In this document: piece by piece, positions 50,497-64,000 of the stretch | How positions within the stretch are numbered: position 1 is the stretch's first letter | How the letters are laid out: every line of letters starts with the position of its first letter | NCBI RefSeq assembly: GCF_000003815.2 | Contig: NC_049982.1 | Span: 18,839,534-18,903,533, forward strand | Direction of reading: 5' to 3' | Length of the DNA: 64,000 nt | Source of the DNA: Branchiostoma floridae | Taxonomy: Eukaryota > Chordata > Leptocardii > Amphioxiformes > Branchiostomatidae | Notes under the pieces: model-generated | Databases searched by the model: none | Told to the model about the DNA's origin: nothing | The model's input: the letters and a program-made list of their open reading frames with translations, nothing else | Position numbers and translations under genes: made by a program

Positions 50497-56909
<6,413 letters not shown>

Positions 56910-57485: not shown

Positions 57486-60400
57486 CTAGTTAGGACGCGA
57501 ATATAGAGCTATGGGGAGAGTCATGAACAGGCAGCTGAAGTACAGCACAAAGCACAGCCTGTCCAGCACGCGCGACAGCACCATCCATTCGCTTTCCTCA
57601 TCACCATCACGGCTGTCCTCCTCATTCTTACCCAGCCACATATTCAGCTTGTGCAGGGTGCTCTGTGTGGCCACCATGGTGTTCTGGATCCGCCACATCA
57701 CGGTGTTCGTGCTCACCAAGATTTTCATCAGGTTCAGGCGCCTGCGCGGTTCCTCCTCGAGGTTGAAGCTGTCCACAGTAAAGGACGGCATGCGTTCCGT
57801 AGGTGAAGCCATGGTCGCATCTATGCTGTTGATTGCAGGAGGTTCCTCCTTTCTCCTGGTTTGTAGAAAGTGTCGCAGAGATGAAGACATTAACAAACCG
57901 AACATTTTATCATCTCTAGATTTATTACTCCCTCTATCTGTTATGGCTGATCAGAGACGTGAACAGTACAGCATCAGTAACAATGTTCCTCAAGTCAACA
58001 TTATCGCTTACCTCACAACTTCTAAAGAAGCAGTCTTTTCCAGAACTTTTTTTAACATTCCTTTCTCTCAAGGAGTCAGGTTGGCCAATCAAAGTAAACT
58101 TCATGGCAAGTTTCCTTAGAAAGCATTGATAAACAAATTACTTTTTACCAAATAAAATTGAGTTTCTGACCTGCACTTTTTGGTGAGGTCGCCAAGCAGC
58201 ATGGCCATGGCACAGTACTTCAGGAACACCGTCCTGGCCCATGGCGGCAGCTTCCCCTCCCGACCGGACAGTGAGATGACCACGGCAGTGGCTAACATGA
58301 ACACTCCCATCAGGATGATGGCCGTGATGGTCAAAATTCCTGGAGAAGAAGCCGTGCCGATACTTATATTTACCTTTACTGTCGGTATCTGCCATAGATA
58401 TACCATCTATCTTAATCTCCAAGCAGACGCTGGGTGGAAAATCGTAAAGTTTTTTTACCAACAGTTCTGTACCCCAACGTTTATGTAGACGGTTTTAGCA
58501 ACAACAAAAAGCAACTGGTTAGAAAACTGTCTGCTTGGAGATGAATCTATCTAAGATAATCGCACATACCGACAGTACTTATGAAGTGAATGAAACACGA
58601 CTGGAAAGAAAAATGTTATTGCCATGGCGACGATGGTCTCTGAATAAAGAACATAAAATACATATGTCTGACATTAGTGTAACAGGCAGTATTCTGGGAC
58701 GAATGCCGCCGGCCTCCATGGATCCTGAATGAGACACTTTGAACCGTTAAGTACCTGAGCTGAGATACTAGTTCTTCCTGTATACATTTTCCCTGGAGAC
58801 TAACATTCCCAATGGACTACCTGTGGATATATATATATTTCCGTGCAACTCCTAAAATTCTTGCACACTGCACACAATACTATACCATTAGGCTCGCCTT
58901 TGAGGCGTTGCCAAAAAAGCTAGATAGATTACCCAGCAAAGGGAAGGTGGCGCTCCTCGGCAGGAAGTCGTTGATGACCACCAGGGACACGAACATGGAC
59001 AGCAGGATGCTCATGCCGTAGGACAACCGGTCACCCTTGTCGATGGGCACGCAGAACGTGATTCCCATCAGCACCACCAGGACGATGGACGGAGACACTG
59101 TGGTGCACATGTGGTACAGGGAGTTTCGCTGGAGCTGTAGGTCCAGACATGCCTGCGGCAAAAGTGATGATGTTGCACGTTGATACAGGTTGCATTTCGC
59201 TGTGGTAAGCATCTGTGCCACTACATTGCCCTTGCAGTGACGTAGTGTCACAATCTATCTACACTAGAATTATTTATAACATAACGGTTATTGGCCACTA
59301 GCAACATTAAATTCCTATCTGTTGTCTTGATTTTCACACTTCCCTCCAAGAGAAGGGCCCCAACTTTGCTGACCACAGTCTACCCCTCTCTCCTGTCGCT
59401 TCTTCTAAGGTCACCTGGTATGGAGGAGGACATATGCATCACGTGCAACCGGTTCGCTGTACCCAACATAGTACTGTGATTGGTACGCCAAAGTAAGCAG
59501 TACTCATACCGTCGTGTTTTCGACGCGCATGTTGTAGACGACGTCCCATTCTCCCCGTTTGAGGCGCTTGTGTTGATGACACGTGATGACGTCATCGCCA
59601 ATGTCGTCCATCCCCGCGCAGACGAAGACCTCGTTGGACCGGAAGTCGCCCCTGATGCACACGTTACACGTCATGTTATCGAACGGGAACAGGAAGTGGT
59701 CCAGGATACAGGTGGTGACGAGGATGGTCTCTATGATGTATGACAATGATAACGTTTTGATACATTGCTGTACATCTCCGCGGTATCAATTATGTTGTGT
59801 GGGAGATCAGATGTTACTGTTGGGCAGATATATATCACCCCCACTGTATTTACATCTCAACAGAAGACATTACATATAAGCATAAGATTTATCTTACTCG
59901 TTGAAGAGAAAGCATCAATTGTACTCATCAACGAGACAAAATGTGAAATGTCCCAATTCCTTGATTCTGAATCTAGGGCCTATGTTTTCAGTTTGTTTGT
60001 CTTGGTGTGCTTCCAAGTTATATGGAAGATATGGCAAAATGCGAAATGCAGTGTGAATCTGACCGCTTAGGCCAGATTTGTCAGAGTGTCAAAAAGCACA
60101 GGATGCACAGGCCAGAGGTCCTGAAACTAGTTTCGCCTTGTCACATCATACCTATGGTCCAGGTCACCTCACCGGTGTGAGACATCTCAAGGTCGTCCTC
60201 GGGAAATCCAAGAAACTGCGTATCGGCGCTGAAAGGTTTATGTATGTACAGTGAGTGTGTTAACGGTCAAATATTCTCACGTGGAATCAGCAGTCATCAT
60301 ATAGCAGCAGTCACTCATGCCTTTCAATTGTGGCTTTGTTACTACGCCTTGCATACTCAATTGATACATCGCAATAAGAGTGATTGATTGTCAGTCACAC

Positions 60401-63400
60401 TGGAGAAAATTGATCAGTACACAGACATCCAAATTACATGCATATGGTAAGTACCAAATACAAAGTACGTTACTGCCAGGATGGGAGAGAAACATGCATA
60501 CTGTACAATCAGCATGCTTATGTTAGCAAGCATGCTAATGCTAGCACACAATACTGCATCCATTGTGTTCATCCACTACAAGTGCAACGGGATTGACGTT
60601 ACCTTCCACGAAGCTTAATTTTTGGGGTCCAGATTTTTTCATGTTCGACAAAAACTTTTGTGAGATCATACAGGGTGTTTACCCATTTCAGCCGGATGTC
60701 ATACCATTTCTGCTCATAAAACACACAAATGATATCATTAAAAAGGGTAACAGAAATACTAAAGAAATATGGAAAAAATCATACTATTTTCAATAACATG
60801 GTTGAACTTTGTTTTTCGTGACTAAATAATGCATGACGAACCCTGGTTTATTAGTCTGGTATTCTAACATAATAACACATCTAATGCGCCAATTTAAACA
60901 TCGCATTGTAACAATCACAAATACGTTATGTGTCAGTAACAGTGATCTCACAATGTTCAATGTTCGCATACGATAGTAGTCAAATACTAGACACGTCAGA
61001 CTTAATGACTGTTCTTACCAGGTTTATGCGGGCTGCTGTGGTGATGGACTCTCCAGGCTCATCCTTTGAAAAGAAAACAAATGAAATTACAGTCCGTTAG
61101 CATTTTGTCTAGATCATTTTTGTTCATATATCATTCGGTATATTTTGCTCAGCTAAGCTTCCTCACATCATGTATGGTTCTGTTAACTCGTTGGTGATAG
61201 GGTTCAAAAATCAAACATAAGATGCCAAAAATCATCGTCATGCGGAAAATGAAAGTTGGGCAAATCATACGGATTCGTCTTTCGCAAGGGACGTAAAATG
61301 GGGGCCCCGTGTTCGAGGATGTGCCTCGAGCTCGTCAATCAGCCTCATTACTAAAAAATTGGGTGCCTACTGGCTGCAAATAATAATCAGATGTATTATT
61401 ATTTATGTACTTAAGAAGTCTGCTTTTAAGAAGTGGAACTGACGTCCAGTCGTGCCACGAAACAAAACTACCAATGACTGCACATAAACTAACTAAGTCA
61501 ATGATGTCATCAATGCTGGCGGCCACGGTGATGTTCAGTCCGTTGCCCCCTGGAGGCGGCAGGTTCGGACTTATGGAACCCTTCTCAAACTTGTCAACCA
61601 ACAGCTTTGTCCTTGGATCCTCTAANNNNNNNNNNNNNNNNNNNNNNNNNNNNNNNNNNNNNNNNNNNNNNNNNNNNNNNNNNNNNNNNNNNNNNNNNNN
61701 NNNNNNNNNNNNNNNNNNNNNNNNNNNNNNNNNNNNNNNNNGGGCTTTACTGATACTCACCTTGTGAGATAGGCCCTGGGTAACAGTGGTTTGAAGCATC
61801 AAACGCTGAGCATTCTGGTACTACGGCTGACCACTCCGGCTCGTGATCGCAGTTTAGCTTCAGTTCCTCGCACCAAGACCGACAGGGGGCATACTTGCTC
61901 CCCGAACACGGGCTAACAACCATGTAGCACAGAAACTCACGAATCTATGATAACAAAACAAAAAGGAAGCAGACTAAAGAAAAAAAAATGATAAGCAGGA
62001 ATCAAAGAGTATAAGTGTCACGTGTATCAAATAAAATGACACTACGCAGGTTAATATGTACCACCGGCAGATCAGTGTTTGTGGGGTTTAAGTACCACCC
62101 ATGCCGGTATTGATTGTTGCTTTCTACATAGAAATACTACCTATAATAGTAAGTTTATAGTGACTATGGTCAAAACGCACCATTCCGTTGCTAGCCTGGA
62201 AAGGTGAGTATCTCTAACGAGAACTAATTGACATCACCTGATCATGACACCGTTTCTGAGACAGTGTCTTGGTAGTGTTGAACTTTTCCCATTGGAGAAT
62301 AGCGTCGAAGTTCACGTGTCTGTAATGATTTGGGAACGTGGCGTATGCAGAGGTGGGGCACAGCTCCTTAATGCTGTTATGAATGGTCTGACAGCCTGGA
62401 GAGAGACAACAAACATGGCATCCGATCCAAATATTAAGTATAAGTGGAATACAGAAGATAGACAATATTCTACATTTTTTCTCTTACTATTGTACAAAGC
62501 ACAATACGAAATGATAGATAAATGATATGTGATATATGGCTGGTAAGAAGGAATTTACGCACTGCAAACTTCAGCATCCTTGCCATCCCAGCAGTGGGCA
62601 TCACCATGGCACAGTTGGTCGAAGGGAATACAGGTGTGGCCATTGTCGCACACGAAATGGGATCCGTCGGCATTGCACTCAGTTGGCCCAGCTAAAAATA
62701 AGATGTAAAGTTGTCGTTTTAAGTCTCACAAGTATTAGTATAAACACAATGAAAATACAACGACAAACCGAGGAACATTCCAAAGGAGTCTATCTCAATG
62801 ATACAATTTTTTTTACTGTTATCTGACGTTCAATATCTATTACTGAAGAAGACGGATAATTTTGTTAGCAAAAGCCATTCCTCTTTGACATAAATTTGAA
62901 GATTTTTTTCAATAAATGTTTAATTCAAGAGTGATAAGTTGATACACCAATTGAACTGATAGCAAATATTGAATTGGAGAAATAGACCTTTAGTCCGTGC
63001 AGTATAGTCAGCAACAAATGTGTCAGAGGAATTCCGCATTGACCCATAGAAAACCACGGTCAGTCGCCGGCTCCTGGACACGATGTCGGGCATGTCGTGG
63101 CCGCAGTATGTACCTAGGATTAGCAAGTATGCAACACATTATTGCCGATGAAACACATTATATCCATATCTGGCCAACACACAATATATCTTTCTAACTG
63201 TATCTTTGTTAGCAGTACTAAGCCAGAAGTGGTAAGATGTACAATAAGTGTCTTCACTTCTTAACGTTCTCGACTACGCCTTCAGATCATGCACCACCTA
63301 GCATCAAATCATTGATAGATTAGGTAATTTCAACACTTAATTCATAGAAAATCGCAACATTTATGTTTTGATAGATAATGCATTCGAACCAATGGTTACG

Positions 63401-63582
63401 CATGCCTCTATTCAGTATAGACCTAGAATGTCTAACACTTGAAACTCACCAACGATGTCAGACTTGCCGTCCGACCAGGAACCGTCAATGACGTGTACCC
63501 GCCCTCCCTGGCAGAACCCGGACTCGCCGATGCTCAGTTCAAACGGGTGAAAATGAAGCTCTACATGATAACCTTCAGAGAC
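57486..63582 (-). CDS. Cys-loop ligand-gated channel fused to CUB, LDLa and Frizzled-CRD modules (5' end outside window)
   Basis: Thirteen exons with continuous phase (2067 bp, 688 aa visible): 63450-63582, 62988-63113 (CUB; FCQGG, GTYCGHDMPD), 62563-62691 (LDLa; six Cys, CWDGKDAEVC), 62238-62395 and 61761-61944 (Frizzled CRD, ten Cys), 61494-61621, 61019-61063 (45 bp), 60603-60709 (KWYDIRLKW, KIWTPKI), 60152-60228, 59510-59730 (Cys-loop CILDHFLFPFDNMTC), 58933-59152 (M1-M2), 58171-58339 (M3; LPPWARTVFLKY), 57486-57855 (cytoplasmic loop, M4; SRVLDRLCFVLYF). M2 keeps acidic -1' and 20', and Leu 9', so cation conduction is predicted. The vicinal Cys pair of acetylcholine-binding alpha subunits is absent. 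Predicted to sit in the plasma membrane with the modules outside. The CUB start and signal peptide lie upstream of 63583, probably beyond 64000. A 116-N gap separates the Frizzled and channel parts; phase across it agrees. Confidence 0.85.
58415..58542. mobile_element. MITE with CTCCAAGCAGAC inverted ends in the channel M2-M3 intron
   Basis: Left end ATCTCCAAGCAGAC and right end GTCTGCTTGGAGAT are perfect 14-base inverses, 128 bp apart. The ends match the 8557-8732 family, but the interior differs. Flanks ATCTATCT(T)A / GAATCTATCT are similar on both sides. Confidence 0.7.
61626..61741. other. Assembly gap (116 N)
   Basis: Lies in the intron between the last Frizzled exon (61761) and the first ligand-binding-domain exon (ends 61621). 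A very small exon could be hidden here. Confidence 1.
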
Positions 63583-64000
63583 CTTTGGGACCAAGGAAAT
63601 ACTGTAAATGCATTTTAAGTTCGCGGGGATTTAATTTCGCGGTAGCGGGAAAAAGGACTTTTCGCGGTGGATTTAAGTTCGCGGTAACACCATAGACTGC
63701 AGTCTAATACCATAATAGAAAAATATTCGCGGTGGTTTTAAGTTCGCGGTGAAGTGGTCACCGCGAAAACCGCGAACATTAATCCACCGCGAACATTTCT
63801 GCATTTACAGTACATCCGAATCAGTGTACAACACAAAAATTACAACAGATAGCAATCAGTATTACTGTACCCTGTTTGAAACAAAGAAAAAGTGCACTTC
63901 CTCGTTGATAAAGTTACGATTCTGTTGCCTAGTATTGGTTCAGAACATGATATATACGATACATATAACGATGCATTTAATAAAATGCTACAAGTTTGAT
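63583..64000. other. Intron upstream of the first visible channel exon
   Basis: The acceptor AAAG at 63583 follows a weak pyrimidine tract; then comes the MITE at 63600-63812 and AT-rich sequence. I see no CUB N-terminal half or signal peptide here. Confidence 0.6.
63600..63812. mobile_element. MITE with TACTGTAAATGCA ends and TTCGCGGT repeats
   Basis: Perfect inverted ends TACTGTAAATGCA / TGCATTTACAGTA, with TA at the outer edge as a possible Tc1/mariner-type target site. The interior contains several copies of TTCGCGGT with TTTAAG on both strands and can fold extensively. No coding capacity. Confidence 0.85.

Follow-up and report, generated by a model that had tools for sequence, protein, structure and literature searches.

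The window analysed here, a 64,000 nt stretch of the Branchiostoma floridae genome (assembly GCF_000003815.2, contig NC_049982.1; G000:C4:18839534-18903533 in our numbering), carries on its reverse strand a gene predicted to encode a Cys-loop channel behind a large modular head. At 57486-63582 (-), the first-pass annotation had described thirteen phase-consistent exons that join a CUB domain, an LDL-receptor class A (LDLa) module, a ten-cysteine Frizzled (Fz) cysteine-rich domain and a complete channel. All 13 exons were confirmed, their introns are GT-AG and a single frame is open throughout; ten cysteines were indeed counted in the Fz domain on the spliced sequence, and the LDLa module has six. 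From the 5′ to the 3′ side of the gene, the window holds the following features.

63450..63582 (-): CUB domain, exon 2 (spliced model and Pfam).
62988..63113 (-): CUB domain, exon 3 (spliced model and Pfam).
62563..62691 (-): LDL-receptor class A module, single exon, phase 1-1 (23.1 bits, cut-off 24.1).
62238..62395 (-): second Frizzled cysteine-rich domain of the gene, exon 1 (41.4 bits, cut-off 32.1).
61761..61944 (-): second Frizzled cysteine-rich domain, exon 2 (spliced model).
61626..61741 (no strand): assembly gap of 116 N at the Fz/channel boundary, a site occupied by kringle and CCP exons in four paralogues.
61494..61621 (-): ligand-binding domain exon 1, entry phase 1, no in-frame methionine (translation).
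61019..61063 (-): ligand-binding domain exon 2 (spliced model).
60603..60709 (-): ligand-binding domain exon 3, with a tryptophan kept at what we take to be the loop D position (alignment).
60152..60228 (-): ligand-binding domain exon 4 (alignment).
59510..59730 (-): ligand-binding domain exon 5, with the 13-residue Cys-loop CILDHFLFPFDNMTC and a loop C without vicinal cysteines.
58933..59152 (-): M1, M2 (GDR...INDFLP, cation-type) and the start of M3 (Pfam and alignment).
58171..58339 (-): remainder of M3 and beginning of the intracellular loop (paralogue comparison).
57486..57855 (-): intracellular loop, M4 and the stop codon at 57486.

An extra exon in the M3 region (M3b, 58639-58570) was dropped because it breaks the frame and M3 is joined directly in the paralogues.

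These exons stood as annotated, but the 5′ limit at 63582 did not. In 30 kb of sequence that overlaps the window end and reaches about 23 kb beyond it, we found 20 further exons upstream, on the same strand and in the same frame as the channel gene, extending up to 72111. Two of them, both outside the window and given in its numbering, delimit the CUB domain and the gene model.

64141-64035 (-): first CUB exon.
72111-72057 (-): putative signal peptide exon, judged by eye.

The complete model spans 33 exons totalling 5,091 bases with the stop codon, and encodes 1,696 residues in one open frame. Its modules follow each other in the order putative signal peptide, five EGF modules, C-type lectin, WSC-like, MAM, Fz, lectin, kringle, CUB, LDLa, Fz and channel, and all 15 module starts are entered in phase 1, which is the usual mark of exon shuffling. 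In animal Cys-loop receptors, which are generally described as compact subunits, the signal peptide usually immediately precedes the ligand-binding domain. No signal peptide stands directly before that domain in the gene model: the channel begins at residue 1252, and more than 1,200 residues separate it from the putative signal peptide.

Pfam searches of the spliced protein gave 51.1 bits for CUB, 53.7 for Fz (two stretches), 82.3 for Neur_chan_LBD (cut-off 26; profile positions 22-146 of 216) and 59.9 for Neur_chan_memb (cut-off 28.1; residues 1463-1685). These are the domains that the earlier annotation had led us to expect, with the exception of LDLa, which fell just below its cut-off. On the full protein, 12 families matched at E up to 0.01, including EGF, MAM and Lectin_C (two stretches), and the kringle (43.1 bits), the second Fz (41.4 bits) and the second lectin (33.1 bits) exceeded their cut-offs when these modules were scanned alone. 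The score of the second Fz domain is well under that of the best Fz places in the genome (123 bits), and the seven-helix Frizzled membrane domain was not among the 12 families. A Wnt-type reading of the Fz domain is not supported beyond the fold.

The channel part was compared with known structures and with its own paralogues. Its best relative in the Protein Data Bank is the alpha subunit of the muscle acetylcholine receptor (chain 9avu_A, E=4.5e-32), and 5-HT3A matched with E=6.4e-25. In 10/10 family copies the Cys-loop has its cysteine pair at a spacing of 13 residues and the FP.D motif, with a third cysteine behind it. M2 starts with GDR or SDR in all ten (KGDRLS in the window copy), a type of start that points to cation selectivity; the residue at -1′ is acidic and no proline insertion precedes M2, which we take to be the signature of such pores. 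M2 was read from the M1-M3 stretches; a pattern for M1-M2 matched 0/10 copies and one for loop C 3/10. A tree built from 12 such stretches placed all ten members of the family on one side of a branch with support 100/97; it is a weak tree, in which 2 of 8 control loci were usable and the bootstrap was unsettled. The pore looks like a cation-type pore of the nicotinic/5-HT3 kind.

Like nicotinic subunits, the window gene thus has a ligand-binding domain, a 13-residue Cys-loop, four membrane segments and a cation-type M2. Unlike nicotinic alpha, it lacks the vicinal cysteines of loop C in the alignment to the muscle subunit, carries a headpiece of more than 1,200 residues and has its aromatic pocket mostly replaced: at the positions that we take to form the pocket, the tryptophan of loop D is kept, while the tyrosine of loop A, the tryptophan of loop B and the tyrosines of loop C are not. 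With so few of these residues left, the ordinary acetylcholine pocket probably plays no part.

A head and a channel in one frame could be a false fusion, in which a secreted modular gene lies upstream of an ordinary channel gene without a joint transcript. Errors of gene prediction are reported to produce spurious combinations of domains in lancelets (PMC4967905). The junction of the window copy falls in the gap, with 116 N among the 139 bases between the Fz domain and the first channel exon, and the first-pass annotation had allowed for a start codon and signal peptide hidden at 61626-61741. When the LDLa-Fz part was used as a genome query, 19 rows were obtained, of which 13, at 8 places, have a channel match nearby; the six without one are probably other Fz genes. 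The CUB part as a query matched only its own locus. Copies at C4:3.95 Mb, C2:14.71 Mb, C16:11.37 Mb and C19:1.37 Mb show the arrangement of the window gene, with head modules and channel ordered alike and on one strand. All four carry a kringle and a CCP (sushi) exon between Fz and channel, and the Fz-to-channel stretch is free of N at each of the four loci (L032, L036, L040 and L048); in the C4 copy no N occurs across the 40 kb fetched (C4:3942000-3981999). The first channel exon of the window copy contains an ATG out of frame and no methionine in translation. With kringle and CCP exons at this site in the N-free paralogues and a first channel exon lacking methionine, a start hidden in the gap is unlikely.

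Paralogue-type kringle and CCP exons were sought in the window and about 23 kb upstream, where only the known kringle was found. Either the gap of the window copy is mis-sized and hides such exons, or they have been lost; the phases fit both. Splice acceptor positions are largely conserved in the four paralogues. An acceptor AG lies exactly at the predicted site in 43/47 cases (25/27 in the head, 18/20 in the channel) against 0-7 of 47 at each other offset from -12 to +12, and donors are exact in 27/40, with a maximum of 14/40 at any other offset. In the C19 copy, ligand-binding domain exons 4 and 5 and M1-M3 seemingly lie within one exon.

We then asked how heads and channels are associated over the genome. 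The module and channel searches scored best rows only, and the resulting counts are lower bounds. Among the best 150 of 173 candidates scored with the channel query there were 137 matches, which we split into 65 subfamily places (E up to 1.2e-14), 45 other Cys-loop controls (E from 3.6e-13) and 27 dropped rows, the boundary being our choice. The dropped rows are additional exons of genes already represented, together with short fragments on C6, C8, C18, C259 and C101; 22/27 have a module upstream within 15 kb. Fz was searched with the Pfam model (best 150 of 230 candidates scored, 145 matches), and four Fz places from the LDLa-Fz search, including the window's own, were added by hand, which raised the Fz-bearing places from 18 to 20. 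Kringle and CCP were searched with queries from the family member L047 (best 150 of 450 candidates scored, and best 150 of 1080 with 88 matches, respectively). A Pfam kringle search (best 150 of 528 scored) and a WSC-like query, which matched many other modular genes, were left out of the counts.

An Fz, kringle or CCP match lies upstream on the same strand within 30 kb at 65/65 subfamily places and at 0/45 controls. Within 15 kb, the 65 places have Fz at 20, kringle at 57, CCP at 56 and any of the three at 63, and the controls again have none (0/45); from the hit density, 0.14, 0.14 and 0.08 of the 65 would be expected by chance for Fz, kringle and CCP. The association is directional: in the 15 kb downstream, one of the 65 places has Fz, one has kringle and none has CCP, and on the opposite strand the corresponding counts are 0, 3 and 2. 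The order is fixed as well: kringle stands outside CCP in 52/52 cases and Fz outside kringle in 17/17. Conversely, 47 of the best 50 kringle matches and 44 of the best 50 CCP matches precede a subfamily channel. The Pfam Fz model, which is not derived from the family, by itself gave matches at 18/65 subfamily places versus 0/45 controls. Some of the 65 places may be recent duplicates or uncollapsed haplotypes; the C16 copies are very similar.

Several points weigh against the proposed gene model. The head-channel junction of the window copy spans an assembly gap; the WSC-like module (21.6 bits, cut-off 27.8) scored below its threshold, as did LDLa; among the paralogues, 4/47 acceptors and 13/40 donors are inexact, and stops occur in the predicted span of the C4 copy (second CUB exon, CUBb; ligand-binding domain exon 5; M4) and of the C16 copy (M3 exon and M4). 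The kringle and CCP queries, coming from a family member, are moreover biased toward family modules. Against false fusion, modules upstream on the same strand at 65/65 places versus 0/45 controls, their fixed order and their rarity downstream or on the opposite strand, together with exact acceptors conserved in both head and channel, make a strong argument, to which the N-free junctions in 4/4 paralogues and the phase-1 channel entry without methionine are added. Repeated duplication of two adjacent genes would require a signal peptide of the channel's own; none was seen, although no search was aimed at the paralogues. We regard false fusion as very improbable, and the gene is almost certainly a Cys-loop channel gene with a large modular head, as judged from its sequence and that of its relatives. 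The modular architecture proposed at first is borne out; with 20 more exons it greatly exceeds the original description, and it is not unique. The gene belongs to a predicted family of about 65 places in which kringle and CCP, and in about one third also Fz, precede the channel in fixed order.

To see how head and pore have changed, close copies on C13, C230 (two, L042 and L043) and C11 were compared in 6 pairs over stretches of 19-73 codons. M1-M3 showed Ka/Ks of 0.04-0.11 at 89-99% identity, and the kringle 0.21-0.49 at 58-75% identity. Ka/Ks was 0.05-0.27 for the part of ligand-binding domain exon 5 and 0.00-0.22 for CCP, the latter from 3 pairs with Ks saturated in two. In the C230 copies the pore and first-Fz exons are 99% identical, the first Fz without a synonymous change, and the kringles 75%; the 99% identical first-Fz pair indicates that exchange between copies occurs. 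These values suggest that the head is under constraint, but that the pore evolves more slowly than kringle and Fz, and also more slowly than some of the ligand-binding domain.

A degenerate channel that conducts no ions and only anchors a recognition head in the membrane, or holds its oligomers together, would agree with the divergence of the ligand-binding domain. The pore argues otherwise: M1-M3 is the most conserved of the compared exons in Ka/Ks, and the window copy keeps a leucine at what we take to be 9′ and charged M2 ends in the alignment. We consider a non-conducting protein improbable.

Several known systems share parts with the window gene. Membrane frizzled-related protein (MFRP) has lipids among its binding partners, along with membrane proteins such as the channel KCNJ13 (PMC12036977). 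In cephalopods, nicotinic-like channels have evolved into sensors of poorly soluble molecules (PMC10338036), and kringle, lectin, CUB and LDLa modules are found on adhesion GPCRs of amphioxus (PMC2246102). These last have the same kinds of module on a membrane receptor, but are seven-helix proteins and not channels. The window gene resembles MFRP in having CUB, LDLa and Fz in a row, but a four-segment channel follows, whereas MFRP, with a single membrane anchor, has no channel of its own. The cephalopod chemotactile receptors are not known to carry added modules.

The account that we favour as a whole, at roughly even chances, is an orphan cation channel with a ligand-binding recognition head. 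Five subunits would assemble into a cation channel ringed by adhesive heads, whose modules would bind fixed or poorly soluble external ligands such as glycans, lipids, matrix or microbial surfaces, and contact of a head with its ligand would open, position or cluster the channel. Recognition-type gating or placement by the head, taken on its own, we put slightly below even. Some results run counter to this account. Only 6/10 copies have the acidic residue at 20′, and the Pfam match at profile positions 22-146 of 216 implies that the later ligand-binding domain is divergent. Fast change is not confined to the kringle, since the second-Fz exon (Ka/Ks 0.15-0.39) and ligand-binding domain exon 4 (0.10-0.51 in the same 6 pairs) also evolve faster than the pore; the fast head could reflect relaxed constraint, or a pore homogenised by gene conversion.

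The head might instead be an in-cis clustering or anchoring device at synapses or junctions, with an ordinary small ligand gating the channel. In worms and flies, receptors are clustered or modulated by separate proteins that contain CUB, LDLa or CCP modules, namely LEV-10 (CUB and LDLa), LEV-9 (CCP), SOL and Neto (PMC9083331), and a CCP exon lies upstream within 15 kb at 56/65 places. LEV-10, LEV-9, SOL-1/2 and Neto are however proteins separate from the receptor, single-pass in the case of LEV-10 and Neto, whereas in the gene model the modules are fused to the channel; kringle, lectin and MAM are not named for them in the part of that paper available, and the LDLa of LEV-10 is reported to be dispensable (PMC9083331). 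Most residues of a small-ligand pocket, at the positions assumed above, are absent, the kringle changes fast, and 65 places would be many for a synaptic anchor. Recognition is favoured over clustering, though not proved, by the copy number, the loss of the pocket and the rapid change of the head, and we consider clustering rather unlikely.

The first-pass annotation knew of no described receptor with this order of modules. No Cys-loop channel with a kringle or comparable headpiece was found in the literature searched, a partial collection of mainly titles and abstracts, and to that extent the statement stands; but Banyai and Patthy (2016) already mention a unique Neur_chan_memb architecture in an ortholog pair of two lancelets, protein 269420_PRF0 (PMC4967905), which may belong to the same family as the window gene. 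An inventory of pentameric ligand-gated ion channels deals with lancelet Cys-less channels (PMC4795631) and a study of nicotinic receptor evolution names amphioxus expansions (PMC6354393), neither mentioning heads in the parts available. Lancelet domain mosaics have been reported as exceptionally frequent (PMC4284660) and criticised as possible annotation errors (PMC4967905).

Further features were noted in and around the gene. In the head, the peptides of EGF exons 2 and 4 are identical and those of exons 3 and 5 nearly so, the mark of a recent internal duplication. The lectin-kringle intron contains a telomere-like TTAGGG array (L009 7600-7780), and a large N gap with palindromic sequence at its edge lies upstream of the signal peptide exon (L010 5368-7048). 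Elsewhere in the genome, dense tandem Fz exon arrays without a nearby channel match occur at C3:2.02-2.07 Mb, C4:10.19-10.23 Mb and C290, and WSC-like exon arrays with kringle matches close by, probably other modular genes, at C4:2.90-3.02 Mb and 3.67 Mb. A separate open frame at 55251-55454 (+), near the 3′ side of the gene, resembles a zinc-binding dehydrogenase or prostaglandin reductase. The first CUB intron holds one more element.

63595..63817 (no strand): MITE-like element with inverted ends (TGCATTTACAGTA...), not protein-coding.

On the boldest reading, which we think somewhat less likely than not, lancelets would possess some 65 'adhesion ion channels', nicotinic-type cation channels whose exchangeable, fast-changing heads of kringle, CCP, Fz, CUB, LDLa, lectin, MAM and EGF modules convert contact with matrix, microbes or lipids directly into current. 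If so, they would be an ionotropic counterpart of adhesion GPCRs and innate recognition receptors, and Cys-loop channels could be built into adhesion or recognition receptors, with modules that serve worms and flies as independent partners in receptor clustering sitting on one chain. The family would also help to decide, for one case, whether the domain mosaics of lancelets are genuine or products of faulty annotation.

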